From Methyloceanibacter sp. wino2 (lineage in GTDB: Bacteria > Pseudomonadota > Alphaproteobacteria > Rhizobiales > Methyloligellaceae): a DNA stretch of 64,000 nt. The stretch is from assembly GCF_003071365.1 (NCBI RefSeq), contig NZ_CP028960.1, positions 2,046,001-2,110,000 of the forward strand, in the 5' to 3' direction. Numbering within the stretch: position 1 is the first letter of the stretch; each line of letters begins with the position of its first letter. Below the pieces are notes generated by a model. It worked only from the letters and a program-made list of their open reading frames with translations. It did no database searches and was not told the DNA's origin. The position numbers and the translations under genes are program-made. Positions 29,575 through 32,572 of the stretch are shown here, one piece after another.

Positions 29575-30054
29575 CTAGCGGCCGAACAGCCAGTCCTCGA
29601 AAGTCGCGCGCGACTTTCTAAGATCCTCGGCGGCACTCATGCGCGGCGCGAGGTTCGGATCGCCGCGTTCGGGAGAGGGCGACGACGGCGCCCGCATGTC
29701 CCGTTCAGCCGACCGTGTCATAGCCTGGCGTGGCGCCCCGGGGTCCGTCGCATGCGGACTGACGGTCACGGTCGATCGCGCACCGGCCTGTAGGTCCGTA
29801 TGGGCCAGCCGCGGGTTCGGTCCTGGCGCCGCGCCACGGGGCGACATTCGGATATTGGACAAAGAGTGCCGCCGGCTGCGCGCCTCGCGCTCTGCCCGTG
29901 TGGCCCGTACCTGATTGAGTTCCGCCGGGGCGAGCCGGGGAGCAGGAGAGGGCTGCATGCGGCTGGTGGTTTCTCCGGACGGGGTTTCCGCATGCGCGGC
30001 AGCAGCGCATACGACCAGCGAAACGGAGAGCGTTCTCGCGAGGAGCTTCAGCAT
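29575..30054 (-). CDS. Small secreted Arg/Pro-rich protein
   Basis: 159 residues with a signal peptide (MLKLLARTLSVSLVVCAAAAHA). The mature chain is rich in Arg, Ser, Pro and Ala and low in hydrophobic residues, so probably disordered; the C-terminal segment AAEDLRKSRATFEDWLFGR is the most regular part. Function unknown. Convergent with the jelly-roll gene, the two stops almost touching. Confidence 0.55.
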   Translation of the reverse strand: MLKLLARTLSVSLVVCAAAAHAETPSGETTSRMQPSPAPRLAPAELNQVRATRAEREARSRRHSLSNIRMSPRGAAPGPNPRLAHTDLQAGARSTVTVSPHATDPGAPRQAMTRSAERDMRAPSSPSPERGDPNLAPRMSAAEDLRKSRATFEDWLFGR

Positions 30055-30157
30055 GCCTGTTTCTTACGTCCGGCGGCCCGTTCCAGCAAGCCGTTCCGCT
30101 TGAAGCATCTTGCCCCCTCCAGGTTGCTGAGGAGGGCAGGGCTCTACGGCCTGTCCC

Positions 30158-31036
30158 TCAGGTCCCCTCCCGCTTGGCGTTCGAAAGCAGCGCGCCGGAC
30201 AGGGTCTCGAGGCGCGCCTCGATCCGCGCAAGCCGCGCATCGATGGACGGGGCGGTGATGGGGTTTTCGCTCGCGATCATCTCCGGCGCATGTGCGTCGG
30301 GGTTCCCCTCCAGCTTTTCGTGTTCGGCCTGCAAGGTTTGGATGACGATGCCGATCATCATGTTGAGGAAGATGAAGGCCACCAGGAAGATGAAGCTGAG
30401 ATAGAACAGCCAGCTCAGCGGATAGACCGCCATGGTCTCGTACATCACGTCGGTCCAATCCTCGAACGTCGCCACGCGGAAGAGCGTCAGCATGGCGATG
30501 GAGATGTTGCCCCACAGGGTCGGATTGATCTCCGCGAAGAAGATGCTGCCGGCGGCGCCGTAGATGTAGAAGATGATGAACATCAGAAGCGTCACGTAGC
30601 CCATGCGCGGGATCGCCTGGAGCAGCGCATTCAGCAGCACCTGCAGTTCCGGGATCATCGATACGAGCCGCAGCACCCTGAAGATGCGCAGTAGCCGTCC
30701 GAGAAGCGCCATCTCGCTCTCGTCGATGGGAATGAGGCTCGCGGTCACGATCACGAAGTCGAAGATGTTCCACCCTTTCGAGAAGAACCGCTTCAGATTG
30801 TGCTCCGCCGCCATGCGGATGAGCAGCTCGACCAGGAAGAAGATCGTGACGGCATAGTCGAGAGCCTTGAGCCCCGCGGTGAGCTTGGGCCCTAGGGGAT
30901 AGGTGCCGATGCCGACCTTGAGTGCCGAAATCACGATGACCGTGATGACGAACAGCTCGAAAATCTTGTTGCTGCGGATATCGATGAAGAACTTTTTCAG
31001 ACCGGGGGCCCGGTCCAGCACTGTCTTGTCGTTCAT
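30158..31036 (-). CDS. Bacterial voltage-gated cation channel homologue (NaChBac family)
   Basis: 292 residues, a single six-helix subunit: S1 about 26-44, S2 58-76, S3 90-105, S4 about 110-125 carrying Arg114, 117, 120 and 123 at every third position, S5 146-168, S6 206-235, then a C-terminal coiled coil (266-288). The pore has ..LFRVATFEDWTDVMY, so the filter T190-F-E-D-W-T-D196 has acidic residues at the positions equivalent to 177, 178 and 181 of NavAb (TLESWSM). Sodium channels of this family have Ser at the second and a neutral residue at the last; the engineered calcium-selective CavAb has TLDDWSD. Predicted calcium-permeable. Confidence 0.92.
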   Translation of the reverse strand: MNDKTVLDRAPGLKKFFIDIRSNKIFELFVITVIVISALKVGIGTYPLGPKLTAGLKALDYAVTIFFLVELLIRMAAEHNLKRFFSKGWNIFDFVIVTASLIPIDESEMALLGRLLRIFRVLRLVSMIPELQVLLNALLQAIPRMGYVTLLMFIIFYIYGAAGSIFFAEINPTLWGNISIAMLTLFRVATFEDWTDVMYETMAVYPLSWLFYLSFIFLVAFIFLNMMIGIVIQTLQAEHEKLEGNPDAHAPEMIASENPITAPSIDARLARIEARLETLSGALLSNAKREGT

Positions 31037-31232
31037 TCGTCTCTCGGTATCGGGTCCTTCGTGGCGCTCTGTTGATCGGCGATCCTAGCGAGGATTGTGG
31101 TTGAAAGGCGTATGACACCGCGCCGCTCTTTGCCAGCCATACGGGTCGCGCCGGTCCGGGCGTGGACAGGCGCAATTGGCTCCGGGGCGGCCGTCCAGCC
31201 GTCGCCTACGGTCGTCGTGTCGACGCGATCGG

Positions 31233-31517
31233 CTAGGAGGAGAGGCCGCGCTTGAGATCGTCGAAGGTCAGGGCCGGAACGATGTCGATGGCGGCATCCA
31301 GCGCGGCGAACATCATCTCGTTCAATTTCGGCAGGAGAGCCACGTCCTCCAGGTCGAAGAAGATGTAGCCTGTGCGCTCGCCGCCCTCGACCATGAAGTA
31401 GGCGGCCTCGGCCTGAGTTTCGGTGATCACGGCCTGGATGACCTGCCCCAAAGAGCCGTCCTCGAAGGCTTCGTTTCCACGCTCCACGGGAATTGAGAAT
31501 CGCATCATCATTCGCAT
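31233..31517 (-). CDS. Small hypothetical protein
   Basis: 94 residues; MRMMMRFSIPVERGNEAF then a compact alpha/beta protein (AAYFMVEGGERTGYIFFDLED, LPKLNEMMFAALDAAIDIVPALTFDDLKRGL), similar in outline to small dimeric alpha-beta barrel (DUF3303/YciI-like) proteins. No catalytic motif identifiable. Lies 196 bases before the voltage-gated channel gene, same strand. Confidence 0.6.
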   Translation of the reverse strand: MRMMMRFSIPVERGNEAFEDGSLGQVIQAVITETQAEAAYFMVEGGERTGYIFFDLEDVALLPKLNEMMFAALDAAIDIVPALTFDDLKRGLSS

Positions 31518-31671
31518 TGCAGGCGTCTCCTTGGTGTCGGGTCACCATAGCCAATCCGATATGCAGAAGAATGACTTAGGTAGTAATTTCTGTGGCTCGT
31601 CTTGTTGTAAATCTGTCATGAGAGAGCGCTACAGTCGGAACTTCCCTGACTATTATCTAGTCCTCAGAAAG

Positions 31672-31700
31672 CCCCGGGCGCCTCGTGCGGCCGGGGTTTT
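31672..31700. terminator. Bidirectional terminator-like hairpin
   Basis: CCCCGG (31672-31677) pairs with CCGGGG (31691-31696) around a 13-base loop and is followed by TTTT on the plus strand; on the minus strand the stem is followed by CTTTCTG. It lies just beyond the stop of the LssY-domain gene on the minus strand, so it probably ends that transcript. Confidence 0.6.
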
Positions 31701-31729: not shown

Positions 31730-32572
31730 TCAGGCCACTGGCGGGGCCGCCTCCGCCGTGAGCGGCGCGACGGCGATGATCCCGTCGGTCACGTAATGGT
31801 TGACCTTTCCGGCCGCCAGTTCCTCGCCCGCCTCGTACAGGTCGACGACACCGATCGTGCCGTGGCGGGAAAGCTCGGCCATGATGAAGTCCCGTTCGGC
31901 GTTGGTGTCCGAGTCGGTCGCATGGGTGATCTGGAAGGTGAGGCGCGTCAGGGAGAAGCCCGTATCCTTGGTGCCGGCGCCGACCCATAGGACGCGCTCG
32001 CGGGTGTCGGGCCGGTTGGTGCCATGCCAAAAAACATCGTCCACGGTCTGCGCCTCGGTCAGGCACTTCGCCCAGAACCGGACATGGTGGCGTTTGCGCG
32101 GGCTGTTGCCGATGGGCTTCTGGAAGCCGATGTCCTGGCCGCGCCCGAACAGGTAGAGCGTCGAGAACGGCGCCTTGGGATAGGACGTGTTAAGGACGAA
32201 CGCCCGGACCATCCCCCAGGAGCTCGACAGCGTGAGCGGGTCGGCTTCGTGCCACCCCGCCTTGGCAAAGGCGGCGCGCAGTTCATCGAAGGTCCCCTCC
32301 AAAGCCAGGTTGACGGGATCGCCCGGCAGGCCGTCGCCGGTAATGGTGAAACTCGGCACGTGCTTGTGCCGGAGGACCATGAGGCCCATCCGCACGGTAT
32401 AGGGAAGGATGACGTAGGCCCCGAGCGCATAGGTAGCCACGAGCGCGAGGACCGACGGCAGTTCCCCGTCGACCCACTGGAATACGTTGACGATCAGCCA
32501 GATACCAACGGCGCCCAGGGCGAGGACCGCCAGACGCTGCAGGATCAGAATCACGAGTCTCACGGCGCCCAA
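31730..32572 (-). CDS. LssY-C-domain membrane protein
   Basis: 280 residues. Two N-terminal membrane helices (8-28, 39-62) are followed by a domain containing DPVNLALEGTFDELRAAF, GWHEADPL, FGRGQDIGFQKPIGNSPRKRHHVRFW and TRERVLWVGAGTKDTG. This is the LssY C-terminal domain (PF14067 in my recollection), named for a Legionella secretion-linked gene; exact biochemical function unknown. Not visibly in an operon. Confidence 0.8.
   Translation of the reverse strand: MGAVRLVILILQRLAVLALGAVGIWLIVNVFQWVDGELPSVLALVATYALGAYVILPYTVRMGLMVLRHKHVPSFTITGDGLPGDPVNLALEGTFDELRAAFAKAGWHEADPLTLSSSWGMVRAFVLNTSYPKAPFSTLYLFGRGQDIGFQKPIGNSPRKRHHVRFWAKCLTEAQTVDDVFWHGTNRPDTRERVLWVGAGTKDTGFSLTRLTFQITHATDSDTNAERDFIMAELSRHGTIGVVDLYEAGEELAAGKVNHYVTDGIIAVAPLTAEAAPPVA

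Follow-up and report, generated by a model that had tools for sequence, protein, structure and literature searches.

A channel gene, probably of the AnclNav group, with a TFEDWTD selectivity filter in Methyloceanibacter sp. wino2

A 64,000-nucleotide stretch of the Methyloceanibacter sp. wino2 genome (contig NZ_CP028960.1, positions 2,046,001 to 2,110,000; hereafter the window) encodes a one-domain channel whose filter reads TFEDWTD at residues 190-196. The channel fits the described AnclNav group, the BacNav group with extra filter acids (PMC7041947). It is probably Na+-preferring and either Ca2+-blocked or weakly selective; a calcium-selective pore is a live option, though a less likely one. 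The interest lies in a testable question of pore type rather than in this single gene. How one-domain channels discriminate between Ca2+ and Na+ is still argued, and a rule equating Asp at filter position 4 with calcium selectivity (PMC10120453) conflicts with the behavior of NavPp (PMC7041947). The conflict is made testable by an arginine that occupies every aligned EDWTD pore and is absent from 19 NavAb-like rows, and also by naturally occurring Halomonadaceae channels whose differences lie chiefly in the pore loop.

Gene, fold and filter

The reading frame starts with ATG at 31036 and descends to 30158 on the minus strand, giving 292 residues with no internal stop. Residues 23-241 match Pfam Ion_trans (PF00520; E 1.2e-45), and the fold of the model matches NavRh, NavAb, NavMs and CavAb. 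The first-pass annotation as a voltage-gated channel is supported, with a fold like that of NavAb and CavAb; voltage gating itself would be expected from the S4 helix. The four S4 arginines that it had placed at every third position are R114, R117, R120 and R123. Along with E70 and D93, they are invariant in all 46 aligned sequences (this channel and 45 relatives). The ratio of nonsynonymous to synonymous substitution rates (dN/dS) against five genus relatives is 0.06-0.13, so the protein is kept under purifying selection. This ratio, together with the presence of a single copy in the genome, makes the gene real far beyond chance. The modelled C-terminal heptad helix is probably a tetramer coiled coil.

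The AlphaFold2 model places the motif between two pore helices, P1 and P2 (Table 1), with the filter turn at residues 190-193. Block means of the predicted local distance difference test (pLDDT) are 85-94 across residues 141 to 240, and the model thus confirms that the motif forms the filter, with its acids at the positions first named. D196 lies two residues after the Trp, like NavAb M181, but the backbone length downstream differs: in the alignment, the stretch that follows the filter Trp is longer by one residue in canonical TLESWSM channels. Model and alignment rule out a displacement of the acids from the filter, while the gap after the Trp could sit elsewhere. The proposed resemblance to engineered CavAb holds in part. 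Of the three CavAb changes the channel has those at positions 4 and 7, whereas at position 3 it carries the Glu of NavAb and not Asp.

Ion selectivity and arginine 187

The three acids had initially been taken to indicate calcium selectivity, with sodium-selective relatives described as having Ser at the second of the three acid positions and no acid at the last. The step from acids to calcium selectivity is not supported, and the description of sodium-selective relatives is wrong for the AnclNav group. NavPp of Plesiocystis pacifica, whose native TLEDWTD filter differs from the present one only at position 2, is Na+-selective, with a Ca2+ to Na+ permeability ratio (PCa/PNa) of 0.308 and a low-affinity Ca2+ block (PMC7041947). 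The block persists in the NavPp T6S mutant, TLEDWSD, although the same filter is calcium-selective in NavAb; with TLEDWAD, NavPp carries zero inward current when divalents are present (PMC7041947). In CavMr of Meiothermus ruber, a calcium channel with the filter TLEGWVD, the position-4 Gly is key to Ca2+ selectivity: NavPp-D4G gains selectivity and CavMr-G4D loses it (PMC7041947). Filter acids alone therefore do not predict selectivity, a view also taken for one-domain channels in PMC8002053. By analogy, the most similar measured filter, that of NavPp, points to Na+. No current from a TFEDWTD channel is reported in the parts of the literature examined.

The gene product is probably one subunit of a homotetrameric, depolarization-opened cation channel of the AnclNav group. 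At low external Ca2+ it would most likely pass Na+ and some Ca2+; external Ca2+ would then progressively block it, as in NavPp, rather than permeate selectively. R187, which sits behind the filter, may partly offset or re-orient the extra acids, and its effect could make EDWTD here electrically unlike the EDWSD engineered into NavAb.

In the alignment, position 187 corresponds to Gln172 of NavAb. This alignment has 199 rows and excludes two copies of the gene itself (L081, L082), a locus ending before the filter (L091), one sharing the frame of L090 (L093) and four without an alignment (L083, L084, L094, L203). Arg occupies position 187 in all 146 channels with D193, and the 49 rows without it carry Gln (47) or Thr (2). 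Within eight residues after the filter Trp, Arg or Lys is found in none of the 146 D193 rows versus all 19 TLESWSM rows. In NavAb, Gln172 forms a hydrogen bond with the main chain of Glu177; Arg185 in the P2 helix steadies it, and Met181 (filter position 7) from the neighboring subunit is close by. Q172N gives no current (PMC12919392). The sequence pattern is consistent with a hypothetical role for R187 in supporting or offsetting the acid filter. A word search of the main text of PMC7041947 found no discussion of the P1 arginine.

A more far-reaching proposal, which is tentative and on present evidence doubtful, is that native EDWTD pores form a third kind of filter, neither NavAb-like nor Cav-like. 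Here, R187 of the P1 helix, possibly touching D196 of the neighboring subunit, would hold or offset the extra ring of acids, the result being a Na+ channel that external Ca2+ holds back, and the whole module would be exchangeable as a block in evolution. If so, R187Q would convert the native filter to a calcium filter.

Several observations weigh against the Na+-preferring reading and the role it gives to R187. Arg187 is retained in four of the 199 rows without D193 (ESWTS, ESWTQ) and is therefore not a strict partner of the acids, which weakens the idea of an obligate R187-acid salt bridge. NavRh-type rows (0 of 14) and ESWATA rows (0 of 7) have neither the P1 arginine nor an Arg/Lys after the Trp, so a filter can do without an arginine behind it; a related notion, that the arginine moved from P2 to P1, holds for the EDWTD versus TLESWSM rows only. 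Two channels of other clades (L210, L213) pair a position-4 Asp with Gln at 187, making the R187-D193 link a property of the present lineage and not a law, and the independent pairs for the R187-acid association (four) are too few for significance.

The published record also contains results that favor other readings. The first is that of a true calcium-selective voltage-gated channel, in which four E192 and four D193 would form a ring with D196 outside it, binding Ca2+ tightly and excluding Na+ as in CavAb. The three acids per subunit resemble those of calcium-selective NavAb and NaChBac mutants (PMC7041947), and the "beacon" review holds that a position-4 Asp is always calcium-selective in one-domain channels (PMC10120453). 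In addition, CavMr carrying the NavPp filter, TLEDWTD, retains a PCa/PNa of about 13.8 (PMC7041947), from which it follows that the backbone matters. Phe at filter position 2 occurs in some BacNav and AnclNav channels, and NavAb L176F shows no Ca2+ block (PMC10349818), so that this Phe alone does not predict block. Set against these are NavPp and its TLEDWSD mutant, both Na+-selective and Ca2+-blocked (PMC7041947), the lack of a Gly at position 4, and a pore backbone that departs from NavAb by a one-residue deletion and the change of Gln to Arg at 187. On balance, calcium selectivity is unlikely, but it is a live option.

A still less probable explanation is that the channel is poorly selective or mostly silent in heterologous cells, its native role needing lipid, pH or salt conditions outside those of patch clamp. 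In line with this explanation, no current could be detected in Sf9 cells from the AnclNavs of Halomonas elongata and Teredinibacter turnerae, whose filters resemble that of NavPp (PMC7041947); the low dN/dS and the identical filter in all seven genus copies with a readable filter argue instead for a working pore. That the acids are mainly structural, capping the P2 helix or making subunit contacts, would suit the place of D196 in the first modelled turn of P2 and the coupling of positions 4 and 7 (in 196 of 199 rows the two positions have Asp together or lack it together, as expected of a packing unit), yet it is very improbable given that position 4 governs selectivity in CavMr and NavPp (PMC7041947).

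Distribution, a pore-loop switch and probable origin

The first-pass annotation regarded a native filter of this type as a rarity; it is in fact common in marine bacteria. In 398 Pseudomonadota genomes drawn evenly, this one included, 166 had some match. At 53% identity or above there were 44 places in 43 other genomes, and all 44 filters could be read: 38 TFEDWTD, 4 TFESWATA and 2 TFESWTS. At 38-45% identity, 27 of 29 places were read, with 24 TLEDWTD, 1 TFEDWTD, 1 TLSSWET and 1 TLESWTS, so that T(L/F)EDWTD accounts for 25 of the 27. Within the genus, 8 of 17 genomes carry a close copy, and the filter is TFEDWTD in all 7 in which it is readable. One genus copy (L090/L093, in G015) lies in two pieces, one hit having a TAG, and represents a broken gene or an assembly error. 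A separate search of genome contigs included the filter among its six patterns and is biased, hence the use of the even draw for frequencies; its best 80 of 580 loci, own gene excluded, gave 75 TFEDWTD, 1 TLEDWTD, 3 TFESWAT and 1 TFESWTQ. Matches occurred on 39 plasmid records, and filters were read in 7 of these: 1 TFEDWTD (Pseudoalteromonas), 1 TLESWSM and 5 with Gly or Asp at position 4.

Other filter variants were also seen. Eight Pseudomonadota channels (L191, L197, L199, L200, L092, L111, L112, L114) have Gly at position 4, in the filters TMEGWPD, TLEGWPD, TLEGWVE, TLEGWTND and TLDGWSSE. By motif alone they are nearer CavMr than the TFEDWTD channel is, yet they fall on the NavAb-like side of the tree, where a Gly at position 4 need not confer calcium selectivity. 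L210 (Nonomuraea, TGDDWGN) and L213 (Microvirga, TFDDWSGG) resemble engineered CavAb in their Asp residues at positions 3 and 4, with Gln at the Gln172 place.

In Halomonadaceae the pore loop itself has changed. Seven channels (L067, L071, L075, L138, L139, L141, L146) have a Q/ESWATA loop with one residue inserted. One natural pair consists of Vreelandella aquamarina (L041, TFEDWTD) and Vreelandella populi (L075, TFESWATA). Three of them form a clade (support 100/99) nested inside EDWTD channels (99/91) in an 87-row tree; a wider quick tree divides the seven between two neighboring positions, so that one or two switches from R/EDWTD to Q/ESWATA are possible. When the seven are compared with 15 EDWTD rows of the family, all eight fixed differences lie within residues 173-219, which hold 27 of 113 variable columns (hypergeometric p 4.3e-6). 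With the filter columns, on which the sets were chosen, removed, five of five still do (p 3.5e-4). Outside the loop, identity between the sets (0.82-0.84) is close to that within each (0.82-0.87); inside, it is 0.65 between and 0.88-0.93 within. Likeness of the switched channels to 19 canonical BacNavs rises in the pore loop only, from 0.31 to 0.42. Recombination of the loop and concerted change both fit these data. The switch is also what suggests the block-wise exchange in the tentative proposal of a third kind of filter.

The genus copies form one clade (100/100) in the careful 87-row tree, the bootstrap of which is not fully settled. This clade joins Chromatiales and Sedimenticolaceae rows (99/77), with other Gammaproteobacteria around them, and a quick tree with fewer rows gives a comparable placement; in it, a sister clade is formed by the NavRh-type rows, for which the nearest solved chain is 4dxw. 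In 397 genomes of the host order, matches of at least 75% identity occur only in the host genus, followed by NavRh-type matches at 42-44% and the rest lower. The simplest account of these sequence relationships is that this Methyloceanibacter lineage probably acquired the gene from marine Gammaproteobacteria. Two records titled Candidatus Polarisedimenticolaceae (L010, L035; Acidobacteriota by NCBI ranks) group with the gammaproteobacterial copies, which is perhaps a naming matter.

No operon partner was found when seven neighbor proteins were compared with loci of at least 3 kb: the flanking genes are kept in the genus only and were not found around the gammaproteobacterial copies. Pfam matches among six neighbors are a 3-hydroxyacyl-CoA dehydrogenase, an SDR and an LssY_C-domain gene (window 31730-32572, minus strand). 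No promoter- or terminator-like match was found in 30000-31700.

Relatives of the channel also occur on two viral contigs from IMG/VR, of 97 kb and 27 kb. The two channels are 65% alike: one (L217, 6001-6834) has the filter TFEDWTD, the other (L208, 2968-3822, same contig as L216) TFDNWSE. The 97-kb contig carries a phage-type GroEL (PHROG); the 27-kb contig has a GroEL-like frame, recognized by eye, together with a gene that matches a PHROG annotated as NAD synthetase and has a weak match to a homing endonuclease. These are possibly phage-borne voltage-gated channels. Neither contig matched terminase (PF03237) or Gp23 (PF07068), the latter being uninformative as its controls were silent too, and a brief literature search for phage-encoded sodium channels turned up nothing relevant.

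Table 1. Features of the channel gene, in window coordinates
Feature	Position	Strand	Basis
Channel gene, 292 aa, PF00520, six transmembrane helices	30158..31036	-	Frame, profile match, AlphaFold2 model
Selectivity filter, T190 F191 E192 D193 W194 T195 D196	30449..30469	-	Translation, alignment, AlphaFold2 model
R187 codon, at the NavAb Gln172 place	30476..30478	-	Arg in 146/146 D193 rows of 199; Gln172 role from PMC12919392
S4 helix, residues 110-127, putative gating R114/R117/R120/R123	30656..30709	-	Invariant in 46 aligned sequences; helix in model
P1 pore helix, residues 178-189	30470..30505	-	AlphaFold2 model
P2 pore helix, residues 194-204	30425..30457	-	AlphaFold2 model
S6 inner helix, residues 206-243	30308..30421	-	AlphaFold2 model
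C-terminal helix, residues 263-291, I-L-I-L-L-L heptad ladder	30164..30250	-	Model (pLDDT block means 52-77) and heptad register

Comparison with known channels

The channel shares its fold with NavAb and engineered CavAb, and with CavAb the acids at positions 4 and 7. A CavAb-type filter has Asp at 3, 4 and 7 in a NavAb backbone (TLDDWSD); here position 3 is a native Glu, Arg replaces Gln172, the loop is one residue shorter after the Trp, and NavAb Arg185-Pro186 have no counterpart. Canonical BacNavs combine a TLESW(S/A) filter with a common clade, whereas the EDWTD channel branches apart from the TLESWSM rows in a quick tree drawn without the CavMr, NavPp and cloned H. elongata sequences. 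NavRh (PDB 4dxw) differs in its filter, TLSSWE, and in having Gln at the 187 position.

Two traits of the AnclNav group are present: the one-domain, six-helix BacNav fold, and a filter of the TL(E)(D/S)WTD kind that is richer in acids than TLESW. CavMr, of this group, likewise has acids at positions 3 and 7 but Gly at position 4, where the present channel has D193. The H. elongata and T. turnerae AnclNavs can be likened to it by description only, their filters being described as NavPp-like; among the best 80 of 580 loci, a further 17 channels come from Halomonadaceae, with 56-63% identity to it, and 14 of these have TFEDWTD. The closest parallel is NavPp, also one-domain and voltage-gated with a native three-acid T-x-E-D-W-T-D filter, which has Leu at position 2 in place of Phe, a comparison made by filter description and not by whole sequence.
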